Source: Granulicella sp. (lineage in GTDB: Bacteria; Acidobacteriota; Terriglobia; Terriglobales; Acidobacteriaceae). From it: a DNA stretch of 36,731 nucleotides. A model generated the notes under the pieces. The model saw nothing but the letters and a program-made list of their open reading frames with translations, had not been told where the DNA came from and did not search any database. The DNA is taken from the NCBI GenBank assembly GCA_003142215.1, contig PLOT01000174.1, positions 1 through 36,731 on the forward strand. Reading direction: 5' to 3'. Below are positions 1,473 through 12,844 of the stretch, piece after piece. Each line of letters begins with the position of its first letter. Within the stretch, counting starts at the first letter, position 1. The translations under genes were made by a program, and so were the position numbers.

Positions 1473-2261
1473 TCACCGCACCATGCCGTTGATCTGCGAG
1501 TACATGTCGTCGGCCACATGCACCACCTTCGAGTTGCTCTCGTACGCCCGCTGCGCCAGGATCATGTTGACGAACTCGGCCACCACATCCACGTTCGAGT
1601 TCTCCAGATAGCCCTGCTGCAGCATCCCCATTCCGCTGCTTCCTCCCGGCACGTCCGTGATCGCGTTGCCCGACGACGAGGTCGGCTGTAGCAGGTTTCC
1701 CCCCAGCGAGTTCAGCCCCCCCGGATTGGGGAACGTCGCCAACTGGATCGTCCCCAACTGGCTCGACACCGTCTGCCCCGGCAGCGTCGCCGATACGACG
1801 CCGTACTCCGAGATCGTCACATTCGTCGCATTCGATGGAATCGTCACCGCCGGCAGCAGTTGATTCCCGTTGGCATCCGTCACCACCCCAGCGTTGTTCA
1901 TGTTGAAGTTCCCATCGCGCGTATAGGCGATCGTCCCGTTGGGCAACTGCACCTGGAAGAACCCCGCCCCCTGGATCGCAAGGTCCAGTTGGTTCCCCGT
2001 CTGGGTGAAGTCGCCCTGAGTCATAATCACCTCGCTCGCGGTCGATTTGGTCCCAAGTCCGATCTGCAGTCCCGCAGCGGTCGTCGACGTGCTCGCCGCC
2101 GATCCTGGAGCCACCAGGTTCTGGTAGATCATGTCCTCGAACTGCATCTTGCGACTGCGAAAACCCGATGTCGCCGAGTTCGCCAGATTGTTGGCCACCG
2201 TATCCAGGTTGGCCTGCTGTGCGCTCATCCCGCTTGCCGCCGTGTACAATGCTCGTATCAT
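1473..2261 (-). CDS. flgG: Flagellar distal rod protein FlgG
   Basis: MIRALYTAASGMSAQQANLDTVANNLANSATSGFRSRKMQFEDMIYQ... and C-terminal YLENSNVDVVAEFVNMILAQRAYESNSKVV. Confidence 0.97.
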   Translation of the reverse strand: MIRALYTAASGMSAQQANLDTVANNLANSATSGFRSRKMQFEDMIYQNLVAPGSAASTSTTAAGLQIGLGTKSTASEVIMTQGDFTQTGNQLDLAIQGAGFFQVQLPNGTIAYTRDGNFNMNNAGVVTDANGNQLLPAVTIPSNATNVTISEYGVVSATLPGQTVSSQLGTIQLATFPNPGGLNSLGGNLLQPTSSSGNAITDVPGGSSGMGMLQQGYLENSNVDVVAEFVNMILAQRAYESNSKVVHVADDMYSQINGMVR

Positions 2262-2328: not shown

Positions 2329-3093
2329 CTAGACCCGCCCAAGTTCCTCCGTCGCCGTCTTGTCGAAGTCGTTGTAAAACACGCTCAACGCCTTCTGCAT
2401 CATCTCTCCCTGGCGCTGCACCAGGATCAGTTGCATCGTCCCATGCACCGCGTCCAGGTTCGCTCCCTCCAGCGCGCCCTGCTCCACCGGCGCCGACACC
2501 ACCGCCGGCTGCACTCCATCGGGCGCAGCGAACCGGTTTGTCCCCTGCGCCATCAGCTCTGTCCCGGCGGGAAATCCGAAAACGCCAACCTGTCCGGCAA
2601 TCGCGCTCACCCCTGCGCTCGTCACCGAGACGCTCCCGTCCGGCCCCACGTTGATCGTGCCGCTGGGAATCGTGATCGCCTGACCGCCGACGTCCAGCAC
2701 CGGCTCGCCCTCCGCCGTCTGGAGCACTCCCGTATCGGAGCGCAGAAACGCCCCATCCCGCGTATATTGCACGCCCTGGGCCGATTGAATCGCAAAAAAC
2801 CCCGGCCCGTTCAGCGCCATGTCCAGCGGATTGCCCGTCGCCGTCACGGTGCCCTGTCCCAGATCGATCCGGTTTCCGCCCAGCACGCCGAAGTCGTTGA
2901 CCGCGTCGCCCACCTGCGAGGGAGACTCCTCGTTCTCACTGCCCGCCAGAACGCTGCGGAAGTAGTCCCGCTGCGCGCGAAATCCCACCGTCCCGGCGTT
3001 CGCCAGATTGTTGGCTGCCGTATCCAGCGCCTGCGTCCGCGCCAGCAACCCGGTGTATGCGGCATAGAGCCCACTGTCCATGCCGTGGTTCAA
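2329..3093 (-). CDS. flgF: Flagellar proximal rod protein FlgF
   Basis: MDSGLYAAYTGLLARTQALDTAANNLANAGTVGFRAQRDYF...; FlgF-type rod protein. Alternative start at 3081. Confidence 0.9.
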   Translation of the reverse strand: MNHGMDSGLYAAYTGLLARTQALDTAANNLANAGTVGFRAQRDYFRSVLAGSENEESPSQVGDAVNDFGVLGGNRIDLGQGTVTATGNPLDMALNGPGFFAIQSAQGVQYTRDGAFLRSDTGVLQTAEGEPVLDVGGQAITIPSGTINVGPDGSVSVTSAGVSAIAGQVGVFGFPAGTELMAQGTNRFAAPDGVQPAVVSAPVEQGALEGANLDAVHGTMQLILVQRQGEMMQKALSVFYNDFDKTATEELGRV

Positions 3094-3212
3094 TGCACGT
3101 CGCGTGCCAATGAATGGATTGTCAGGTTAGAACGATGCAACGTGTGCGCAACTTTCGATCCGTTGCCGTTGCCTGTCTATTTTGTTTGTCATTCCGCAGC
3201 GCAGCCTATACC

Positions 3213-3258
3213 CCGTCATCCCGACCGGAAAGAATATGAATCCGTCATCCCGACCGGA
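3213..3258. repeat. Two direct copies of CCGTCATCCCGACCGGA
   Basis: Identical 17-mers at 3213-3229 and 3242-3258 in a noncoding spacer. Confidence 0.9.
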
Positions 3259-3510
3259 GGCGGCGTACTTTGCCGCCGCAGTGGAGGGACCCCCGCATTT
3301 CGTCGTTGCCGTTGCCTGTTCTTCGTTGTTGCCAGTCCCTGCTCGTCTGATTCTGCGCAGCCCACGGAAGTCGTCATTCCCCCCACGAGCCGTCATTCTG
3401 GCGCAGCCAGAATCTCCGTATTGGCCCTTGCCCTTGCTCTTGCCGGTCGCCGCCCGCTCCATCCTCATACCACACAGCTCATAGCCCATAGCTCGAACCG
3501 GAATAATCGC

Positions 3511-3602
3511 CGGGTGCCCCATCTTCGCCGCAGTCTCATCGCGGCTAAGGTGGGGCCTTACCGGGTGCCCCATCCATCGCAGTCTTATCGCGATGGGTGG
3601 GA
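3511..3602. repeat. Two REP-like hairpin units, CGGGTGCCCCATC...AGTCTYATC...GGTGGG
   Basis: Stem-loops at 3518-3554 and 3569-3601: different inner stem sequence, shared outer stem and 9-nt loop AGTCT(C/T)ATC. Confidence 0.85.
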
Positions 3603-3763
3603 TTCGACCCCCCGCAAAAACCCCAGCAAATCCCCTTGTCAAGACCCTCGAAGCCCCAAATTCCACCTAACTAACACCAACCAAACCACTTACCCAATAA
3701 AAATAGTTGGCATACTAGTTTCCCTCCACGGCGTATAATTAAATCAGTAAGCAAAACCACCGA

Positions 3764-3788
3764 AAGACCCGGCCAACCGCCGGGCCTT
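3764..3788. terminator. GC-rich hairpin, possible rho-independent terminator
   Basis: AAGACCCGGC-CAACC-GCCGGGCCTT: 10-bp stem with one mismatch; a weak T tract follows on either strand. Confidence 0.4.
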
Positions 3789-3833
3789 CGCATTTAACGC
3801 ACCAGTGGCCAGCGGCCCTCAACCATGACCACG

Positions 3834-3890
3834 AAGTCCAGACTAAGTCCAGACTTAAACCAGACTAAGTCCAGACAAGTCCAGACTTAA
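3834..3890. repeat. Tandem array of ~11-bp units AAGTCCAGACT
   Basis: aagtccagact|aagtccagact|taaaccagact|aagtccagac|aagtccagact|taa; each unit contains the inverted repeat AAGTC-CA-GACTT or a variant. Confidence 0.9.
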
Positions 3891-4228
3891 CATGCCTTTT
3901 TTGAAGACTTTAGTATTTTTTCGCACACAAAGGAAAATCCGCATGACCGAAGCAAACAAAACCACCCGGTTCTTCGCCTTTACTGACCCCTTACCACTGA
4001 CCCCTTACCACTGCCTCTTCGCCTTTTATACGTCTCACGCGCTTAGCGCGAGCTTAACCAGCACGTTTTGAATACTTTACGCTATTACCACCGGGGGGTA
4101 CACGCCATGACTGGCGCAATCGGGACCGCACCGGCCAACCCAGCTTCGCCCTCTGAACCCGCGCCCAAGCGCTTCCAGTGCCGCCGATTGCCCTGCCTGT
4201 GTGCCGTCTGTGAGAGGAAAGCATGAGT

Positions 4229-5194
4229 TCACTGTTCGTATCCCACCGTATAAATGCGGTCCACAACATCTTCCTTCGTCGCGGGAACGCCTCCATCGCG
4301 GGTGCTCATCGCGCCCATCTCCAGCCACATTCGCAGCCAGTAGAACCGATGCACCCGGACCAGCCGCGACGCCCTCGGCTTCAGCTTGCCCAGCGCCAGC
4401 GTTATTTTGCCCGATATGGACTCGATGTCCGGTACCTGTTCGAACGCCGCATCCACAAAGTCGCACTCGCGCAGACGCCGCCACGCTGTCTTCAACTGCC
4501 CTCCGTCGACCAGCCCGCTCTCCACCTTCAGCCCGCTCATGCGCTCCATGGCGAATGCCGCCGAAGCATCCATCTGGTCTTCAAACGCCAGATAAAGGAT
4601 GCGTCCCCCCGCGATCCGAAGCGGCAGCATTCCCACTCTCTTCACCAGTTCCCTGGGCGCAAGCAGGGCCATCGCCGCCGGATCGAATCCCTCCATCGGC
4701 AACACCGGGCAGTTCCACTGCAAACCCAGTGCGCGCGTGACACGTTCTTCCTTCAGCCCGCACTCAGCCACCAGCCAGCTTCCAATCCGGCCGCGTCCTG
4801 CACGCCGCTGCGCATCGAGCGCATGTTGCAATTGCGGCTGGGTGATCAGTCCCTGCGCCAGCAGGACCAGCCCAAGAGGGACCCGATGCAGATGCTGCCG
4901 GTCCTCTTCGGCAACGGCACTGTCCCCCAGCTCCCGCCGTACCGCGGCCTCCACCAAAGTCTGCACGCATTCGGCGCTGCATCCCCAGTGCCCTTCAAAC
5001 ACTGGCCGCCGCCGATCCTTCAACAACCTCAGCCAGCCTCGGGTACACGCCGGATTGCCGCACCCAGCCCGCTCGTTCCCCCATGCCGCAGCCCCATGTA
5101 CGTCACGCTCAGGCGCCGCACCCGCTGCGCCCGATGGCCGGTACACATCCCTCCCGATCTCCATCTTCATACCCAACCGATTCGCCATCGACAC
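4229..5194 (-). CDS. MshEN/GspE N-terminal-domain-like protein with N-terminal Cys4 cluster; no ATPase domain
   Basis: Contains CGNPACTRGWLRLLKDRRRPVFEGHWGCSAEC (CX4C...CX3C), then PLGLVLLAQGLITQPQLQHALDAQ and RIGSWLVAECGLKEERVTRALGLQ, resembling the paired 24-residue MshEN motifs. No Walker A. Confidence 0.75.
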   Translation of the reverse strand: MSMANRLGMKMEIGRDVYRPSGAAGAAPERDVHGAAAWGNERAGCGNPACTRGWLRLLKDRRRPVFEGHWGCSAECVQTLVEAAVRRELGDSAVAEEDRQHLHRVPLGLVLLAQGLITQPQLQHALDAQRRAGRGRIGSWLVAECGLKEERVTRALGLQWNCPVLPMEGFDPAAMALLAPRELVKRVGMLPLRIAGGRILYLAFEDQMDASAAFAMERMSGLKVESGLVDGGQLKTAWRRLRECDFVDAAFEQVPDIESISGKITLALGKLKPRASRLVRVHRFYWLRMWLEMGAMSTRDGGVPATKEDVVDRIYTVGYEQ

Positions 5195-5263
5195 CTCTAT
5201 CCCGGTCCACCGGCCACCTGCGCATCTGCCGGCCGCTCTCTGCCTGCCCCAGCCTCTACCCTC

Positions 5264-5581
5264 CTAGAACAGGCACCGTATGCTCTCCAGCCGCATCTGC
5301 GGTTCCGCCACTTCGGTCACCAACAGGGCAAAGTTGCCATTGACGATCACCACCTCGCCGCGGGCCATAATCCTGTCGCCAACCACCAGGTCCACCGGCT
5401 CTGCGACCTGCCGGTCGAGTTCCAGCACGTCTCCCGGCCCAAAGGCCAGTACCTCCTTCAGCGGCATCTCGCGAGAGCCAAACTGAAGCGTTGCGTCAAG
5501 CTCGATCTCCAGCAAAAGATCTCTCGCGGAAACCGCTGCCGGCTCCTGTTCTCCCGCCTGTTCTGCAATCGGTTCATCCAT
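5264..5581 (-). CDS. fliN: Flagellar motor switch protein FliN
   Basis: LLLEIELDATLQFGSREMPLKEVLAFGPGDVLELDRQVAEPVDLVVGDRIMARGEVVIVNGNFALLVTEV: canonical SpoA/FliN domain. Confidence 0.95.
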   Translation of the reverse strand: MDEPIAEQAGEQEPAAVSARDLLLEIELDATLQFGSREMPLKEVLAFGPGDVLELDRQVAEPVDLVVGDRIMARGEVVIVNGNFALLVTEVAEPQMRLESIRCLF

Positions 5582-5662: not shown

Positions 5663-6655
5663 CTAATCCATGCCCTGGCGTTGCGCGTCGTCCGTGTGTC
5701 CCTTCACCTGTGCGCCGCGATGTTCTCCGGAACGCACCGGCTGCGCATGAAAGATGGCGAGGCCACCCACCCGGAGCTCTGCCATGGCTTGACGCGGCAA
5801 CGGCAGCCGCAACACAGCGCCCGGCGCCATATCCGCCAAGACCCGCGCGTTCAAGTGCATGGTTGGAAACTGGAGCATAGCGCCAAACTGTGCCTCCTCC
5901 ATCAGGCTGGCCATCCTGGCGCGCGCCTCCGGCGTCCGTCGCCTCGGCCTGTCCCGCTCTGCAATCAGCCTGCGAAGAGTGGTATTCAACACCACCGCGG
6001 GCAGACAAAGATTCAGCGTCCCCTGCGCCTCCGGCATGCGTATCTCAAAGCTCATGCACAGCGTCTTCTCACTGAGCGGCATCAGCCGGGACACCTCCGC
6101 TTCCGGCTCTCTCCGTTCAAGCGCGAACTTCAACCCCACCGGTTGCCACGCGATCTTCAACTCGCGCACCACGATCTCCATCACCGATAGAAGGATGTCT
6201 TCTTCGATGTCCGTCGACTTGCGCAACGGCGCGGACCGGCCCACCCCGCCCAAAAGCAGATCGACCATCGGCGGCGCCATGGCCAGATCCATCTGCAGCA
6301 CACCCAATGCATCCAGCGGGTCCAGCCGCACCGAACACACATAGGCCAGCTCCGGTATCCGTTCCGTGAACTCCGAGTAAACCAGTTGTTCGGCCGAAAC
6401 CAGAGTCGTTCCGAACTCCGTACGCAGCCACGCACCCATGTTATGGGTCAGGTTGCGCGCAAACAGATCGTTCACCGTGCTGATCGCCTGCATCTGTTCC
6501 TGGTTGATCTGGCCCGCGCGATTGAAGTTGTACGCCGCATGTTTTCGCTCCGGCGTCGCCTCCTCCGATAGCGCTGCCACCTCTTCCTTCGCGGTATTTT
6601 CCCGGGACGACGCGAACATCGAGTCGATCTCGCTCTGGTCCAGATGCTTCTCCAT
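5663..6655 (-). CDS. fliM: Flagellar motor switch protein FliM
   Basis: N-terminal LDQSEIDSMF (CheY-binding-type peptide), then RKHAAYNFNRAGQINQEQMQAISTVNDLFARNLTHNMGAWLRTEF... Confidence 0.95.
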   Translation of the reverse strand: MEKHLDQSEIDSMFASSRENTAKEEVAALSEEATPERKHAAYNFNRAGQINQEQMQAISTVNDLFARNLTHNMGAWLRTEFGTTLVSAEQLVYSEFTERIPELAYVCSVRLDPLDALGVLQMDLAMAPPMVDLLLGGVGRSAPLRKSTDIEEDILLSVMEIVVRELKIAWQPVGLKFALERREPEAEVSRLMPLSEKTLCMSFEIRMPEAQGTLNLCLPAVVLNTTLRRLIAERDRPRRRTPEARARMASLMEEAQFGAMLQFPTMHLNARVLADMAPGAVLRLPLPRQAMAELRVGGLAIFHAQPVRSGEHRGAQVKGHTDDAQRQGMD

Positions 6656-12499: not shown

Positions 12500-12844
12500 C
12501 TAAGCCAACCTCGTCAGCCGCAGCGCCATGCGCTCGCCCACAGCCTCAAACTCACCCCAACTTAGCTGTAGCGCGCCCGCCTTCATCGGCAATTCTTCGG
12601 TGGCCGCCCATGCGCTCACGATGGTCTGTCCGCAGCGTAGATTGAGCAGATCGCTCACCTTGAATCCGCTCAACGGTATATTCACCGCCAGAATTACCGG
12701 CAGACGCGAGATCATTGGCCACGCGGGATGTGCTTCCATCGCCTGTGTCCCGGACGCCGGCCCAATCGACGGTCCGGCAAGCTGGCCGCCTCGCACGCCC
12801 GCGTTGTTTTCCCGAAGCTCAGAAGCCGATGCCATGATGTACAT
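12500..12844 (-). CDS. FliN/SpoA-domain protein (second FliN-like paralog)
   Basis: LPVILAVNIPLSGFKVSDLLNLRCGQTIVSAWAATEELPMKAGALQLSWGEFEAVGERMALRLTRLA fits the SpoA pattern; placed next to fliO. Confidence 0.7.
   Translation of the reverse strand: MYIMASASELRENNAGVRGGQLAGPSIGPASGTQAMEAHPAWPMISRLPVILAVNIPLSGFKVSDLLNLRCGQTIVSAWAATEELPMKAGALQLSWGEFEAVGERMALRLTRLA

Follow-up and report, generated by a model that had tools for sequence, protein, structure and literature searches.

c-di-GMP receptors of the MshEN type are known chiefly from pilus and secretion ATPases, together with a small number of other proteins. The MshEN (GSPII) proteins MshE, PilB and PilF are encoded in pil or gsp operons. 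Outside the traffic ATPases, an MshEN domain is present in E. coli NfrB, a membrane glycosyltransferase for exopolysaccharide, and in PA3740 of Pseudomonas aeruginosa and FrgA of Myxococcus xanthus, which combine it with uncharacterised domains and have been linked to surface motility, flagellar operon linkage not being stated in that report (PMC5013675). At the flagellum, the YcgR/PilZ brake is a c-di-GMP receptor dedicated to the motor, and YcgR interacts with MotA and FliG (PMC10140304).

Here we describe a gene in a 36,731-nt stretch of DNA from Granulicella sp. (contig PLOT01000174.1; the window), which encodes a protein of 319-321 residues that we call X, together with its homolog family. 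X resembles MshE, PilB and PilF in predicted fold, in sequence and in a two-motif pocket, and the structures closest to it are c-di-GMP-bound; it differs from them in lacking an ATPase, in having a Cys4 module before the MshEN domain and an extra domain after it, in an Arg-to-Pro change in most members, and in its place beside fliN. With NfrB it shares an MshEN domain on a protein that is not a traffic ATPase, and the NCBIfam NfrB model aligns to X only over the MshEN part, whereas X is flagellar and has no detected enzyme domain. X can be likened to PA3740 and FrgA by description, although X lies in flagellar clusters. With YcgR the likeness is a proposed analogy of function only; the YcgR fold is unrelated to X and a PilZ domain is absent from X in Pfam and NCBIfam searches. 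A published description of the X family was not found in the open-access literature, most subscription journals lying outside the scope of the search. We propose, with a probability of roughly 0.6, that X serves the flagellum of Acidobacteriota as a dedicated c-di-GMP receptor, which is produced alongside FliN and works at the switch or export base.

Gene X and its flagellar neighbourhood

A preliminary description of the window had placed an open reading frame at positions 4229-5194, separated from fliN by 69 nt, and this frame indeed exists, on the minus strand and downstream of fliN. We prefer the ATG at 5188 as its start (coding sequence 4229..5188, minus strand; 319 aa) to the alternative GTG at 5194 (5194..4229, minus strand; 321 aa); judged from the sequence, in which GAGGTG precedes the ATG, the former appears likelier, and residue numbers given below are those of the 319-aa form. 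The constant neighbour of X, fliN (5264..5581, minus strand; Pfam FliMN_C, 5e-22), is accompanied by fliM (5663..6655, minus strand; Pfam FliM, 4.6e-35), and downstream of X lie an flgF-like rod gene (2329..3093) and flgG (1473..2261), both on the minus strand and both with Pfam rod domains. The flagellar genes around X are fliF, fliG, fliH, fliI, fliO, flhB, flhA, fliR, fliM, a second FliN-like gene, flgF, flgG and an flgA-like gene. The second FliN-like gene is located upstream of fliO in the same cluster (12500-12844; FliMN_C, 8.8e-8). The ~1.1 kb between X and flgF (3094-4228) holds no evident gene; it contains short direct repeats and, at 3834-3890, an array of CCAGACTAAGT with an 11-nt period. 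In the closest relative (L002), flgF starts 48 nt past X. As for enzymes of the ligand, five GGDEF matches were found in the source genome, which is 84% complete, along with one PilZ match within a 132-residue frame.

Linkage to fliN and co-occurrence with the flagellum

We collected ~95 distinct full-length X homologs from several classes of Acidobacteriota. Homologs at 46-59% identity were present in 26 of 36 same-genus relatives, one of them a Granulicella MAG, on which the name of the phylum rests, and diverged full-length homologs occurred in further families and classes. All but one belong to flagellar clusters, and X follows fliN in each case in which that gene is seen on the contig (~95 loci, in related genomes, so that the counts are not independent). 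Because homologs were found by similarity and their surroundings were checked afterwards, this linkage is measured rather than assumed. fliN was directly upstream of X in 30 of the 30 loci examined first and likewise in every additional locus of the same class, these having been fetched on the presence of X; at loci from other classes it was upstream within ~2 kb in 18 of 20. One locus (L175) begins too near its contig end to show fliN and contains flgF and flgG. Loss of flagellar linkage among homologs had been named in advance as a possible refutation, and the linkage is instead kept across the phylum. In one locus of another class (L156), an HDOD gene (3659-4579) and a DUF2802-like gene lie between fliN and X. 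The single homolog without flagellar neighbours (L174, 4846-5670; fliM is elsewhere in its genome) is a 274-residue Cys4 plus MshEN protein with near-canonical RLG/KLG motifs, next to secD/secF-like and tatD-like genes and with an HD-domain gene nearby, and may represent a non-flagellar branch of the family.

With X starts placed at the conserved ATG, 25 of the 30 loci show the same overlap of exactly 13 nt between the X start and the fliN stop, and two others an overlap of 4 nt, while a gap separates the genes in L002, L030 and the window (75 nt from ATG 5188). At the position where relatives start X, the window (within 5189-5263) has a GTG and then an in-frame stop, and the X start has thus probably moved downstream in this genome. 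A FliN-X fusion was considered, as the two are in frame across the fliN TAG in the window genome, and was rejected because relatives use another frame with overlap. In two loci a sigma-28-like gene rather than fliM precedes fliN, and the fliN-X pair is kept; this gene stands between flhA and fliN at 5164-6030 in L072 and at 2676-3662 in L122. In genome G176 the sole FliM match is ~80 kb distant. From the overlap, and from the persistence of the pair where the cluster lacks fliM, we infer that FliN is the closest partner of X; that X contacts FliN or its neighbours has, in our estimate, about even odds.

One alternative is that X does sense c-di-GMP, with its target in flagellar export or in the building of the rod (FlhA, FliH/FliI, FlgF), and so gates the number of flagella rather than their rotation. 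In favour of this, many lineages have X placed with fliN on one side and the rod genes flgF/flgG on the other, and the MshEN domains of PilB and PilF are parts of assembly ATPases and can work by way of partners. However, the tightest link of X is the one to fliN, with its 13-nt overlap and its retention where fliM is outside the cluster, and many relatives of the window have no flgF within 1.5 kb of X. We consider this alternative somewhat unlikely; it overlaps our proposal, since X is still a receptor in both.

The distribution of X was profiled in one set of 396 genomes of Acidobacteriota. Full-length X was found in 56 genomes, and FliM was above its cut-off in all 56 of these; a further 47 genomes had FliM without X, and X occurred in none of the 293 that lacked FliM (Fisher p = 8e-40 for co-occurrence, a value that ignores shared ancestry). 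More telling than this p-value is the recurrent joint absence of X and FliM: 7 of the 10 same-genus relatives without full-length X also lacked FliM (some of these genomes are incomplete), and in the remaining 3 (G020, G027 and G031) the sole FliM was a second one of greater divergence, encoded in a cluster without X. Because every genome with X has FliM and 47 genomes have FliM alone, we conclude that X is dedicated to the flagellum and not essential to it, a dedication that is well supported computationally. No degenerate X was found in the flagellar clusters lacking it. In several relatives, a second, X-less flagellar cluster has an HDOD gene in the place after fliN (L035, 4290-5000; L038, 8084-8845; L039, 3936-4634). 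Genome G031 carries an in-frame chimeric ORF (L036, 463-1803; L201, 5990-7306) in which the front of a sigma-54 activator is joined at DLYY-WLRLWLE to approximately the last 50 residues of X; by its sequence it looks like a deletion scar, misassembly being the alternative.

The MshEN domain and its predicted ligand pocket

A phmmer search with the single X protein matched PilF (7e-19), PilB (9e-9) and MshE (5e-6), and a profile of the X family strengthened the matches to PilF (2e-40) and MshE (5e-16); by these sequence comparisons, the homology of X to MshEN is far above chance. The NCBIfam model NF053729 (c-di-GMP_motif) matched residues 104-156 of X at 43.9 bits (curated cut-off 38) and all 67 of the 67 members scanned, while the Pfam MshEN model (PF05157) left X of the window below its cut-off (20.6 vs 23.1 bits). 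The AlphaFold2 model of X (pLDDT 86.6, pTM 0.83) is confident save for ~40 N-terminal residues. Foldseek matched it at a probability of 1.00 to the N-domains of MshE, PilF, PilB and XpsE, and its top matches were c-di-GMP-bound structures, namely PilF-GSPIIB (3e-8) and MshE (5htl_B, target TM 0.71). The preliminary description had proposed an MshEN-like segment and had set a model without that fold as a possible refuter; the model has the fold, and the predicted MshEN fold of X is well supported computationally. Its C-terminal alpha/beta subdomain (residues 158-240; 4469..4717, minus strand) is delimited by phmmer and profile matches to PilB/PilF and by Foldseek alignments of ~140 columns. The absence of an ATPase, likewise described earlier, is borne out by Pfam and NCBIfam searches, in which neither T2SSE nor any other ATPase matched X outside the MshEN part. 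X had no match in a viral fold library. A tree of X and PilB MshEN domains was set aside because PilB was not monophyletic and a GspE-like sequence fell among X with support of 0.02.

Motif 1 (residues 104-127, PLGLVLLAQGLITQPQLQHALDAQ; 4808..4879, minus strand; within the NF053729 match) fits all constrained positions except the leading R, which is P, as had been noted. Motif 2 (residues 134-157, RIGSWLVAECGLKEERVTRALGLQ; 4718..4789, minus strand) was also correctly called degenerate: the helix-turn Gly is C, the next residue is G and two Leu are I and V, with R, G and Q kept. The spacer is 6 residues in X, the length originally given, and 5 or 6 among relatives. In an alignment of 99 sequences, in which a few genomes are present twice, the 12 ligand-motif positions defined by MshE contact numbering (PMC5013675) had a mean entropy of 0.63 bits, compared with 2.16 bits elsewhere in that region (p = 3e-6). 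G106 and Q157 are invariant (99 of 99), and G136 is present in 97 of 99. Motif-1 position 1 is Pro in 78 of the 99 and R or K in 17. Most contact positions of the two 24-residue motifs are kept under strong constraint, but the branch of the window has the R-to-P change and a shifted motif-2 turn.

These two changes raise the possibility that X is a structural or assembly adaptor of the flagellum built on an MshEN scaffold, in which c-di-GMP binding was lost and motif residues were kept for the fold or a protein interface. Members of the fold that do not bind c-di-GMP exist, XpsE and GSPII-A (PMC5013675, PMC12002112); in GSPII-A it is the packing of the subdomains that keeps a near-consensus motif from binding (PMC12002112). 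The fixed linkage to fliN, too, would suit a structural partner. However, conservation in X is centred on the ligand-contacting residues and includes both Gln and both Gly, positions partly lost in XpsE and GSPII-A, and members from other classes have near-canonical R/K-LG motifs. In addition, Pro at motif-1 position 1 falls within the relaxed search motif (PMC5013675). GSPII-C of PilF has P335 at position 1 of the middle of its three motifs, so that any adjacent pair includes a Pro, and it binds c-di-GMP with a KD like that of MshEN; GSPII-B of PilF with the K167L substitution binds c-di-GMP more tightly than the wild type (PMC11731258). The R-to-P change in X therefore need not abolish binding. 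We regard an adaptor without ligand as distinctly unlikely, and the conservation of the predicted pocket makes it quite probable that X binds c-di-GMP.

Flanking modules and the proposed role of X

The CX4C...CX3C cluster of the preliminary description is present in X as CGNPAC and CSAEC. This Cys4 module (residues 43-74; 4967..5062, minus strand) has C43, C48, C70 and C74 conserved in 96, 99, 98 and 99 of the 99 aligned members, and its exact pattern is carried by 95 of 99 members and, among 856 other long ORFs, by 4. The label of zinc ribbon comes from the preliminary description; this region is not covered by any Pfam or NCBIfam model, those of zinc-binding families included. The C-terminal domain (residues 241-319; 4232..4468, minus strand) is marked by W284-x-R286, with W in all 99 members and R in 96 of them, and is predicted to form one helix and three or four strands; neither the full model nor a separate model of the domain gave a significant match to known structures in this part. 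A truncated PilB was considered because the C-terminal domain is like the PilB N2 segment by eye, and was rejected on an hhalign E-value of 0.05 at 1% probability and the lack of a significant PDB match. The Cys4 and C-terminal modules would, by inference, be the partner-binding parts of X. That X instead regulates transcription or translation of flagellar genes, with the conserved Cys4 module contacting nucleic acid, is very improbable, as Pfam and NCBIfam returned no DNA-binding family and translation overlapping that of a structural gene is more what one expects of a stoichiometric partner.

In the receptor that we propose, c-di-GMP would bind across the two 24-residue motifs and change the packing of the four-helix subdomain against the rest of X. 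The most speculative parts are those that follow: overlapping translation may keep X in step with FliN; X may be placed in the C-ring, at its FliN layer, or higher up at the export apparatus, held by the Cys4 module, the C-terminal module or both; and at high c-di-GMP X might slow or bias the motor or hold back assembly, in the manner of YcgR with an unrelated receptor domain. By analogy, a YcgR-like brake is hypothesised as one of several possible outputs of X. The wider proposition is tentative, and we give it somewhat less than an even chance: in much of the phylum, c-di-GMP would control the flagellar switch or export base by way of an MshEN protein that is co-translated with FliN and forms an independent counterpart to the PilZ brake.

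If true, it would constitute a second, unrelated c-di-GMP route to the flagellum, in a phylum in which motility has received little study. X offers a definite gene, and predicted residues of its pocket, for deletion, mutation and assay in culturable soil bacteria, and it might let soil Acidobacteriota adjust their swimming by a previously undescribed route.
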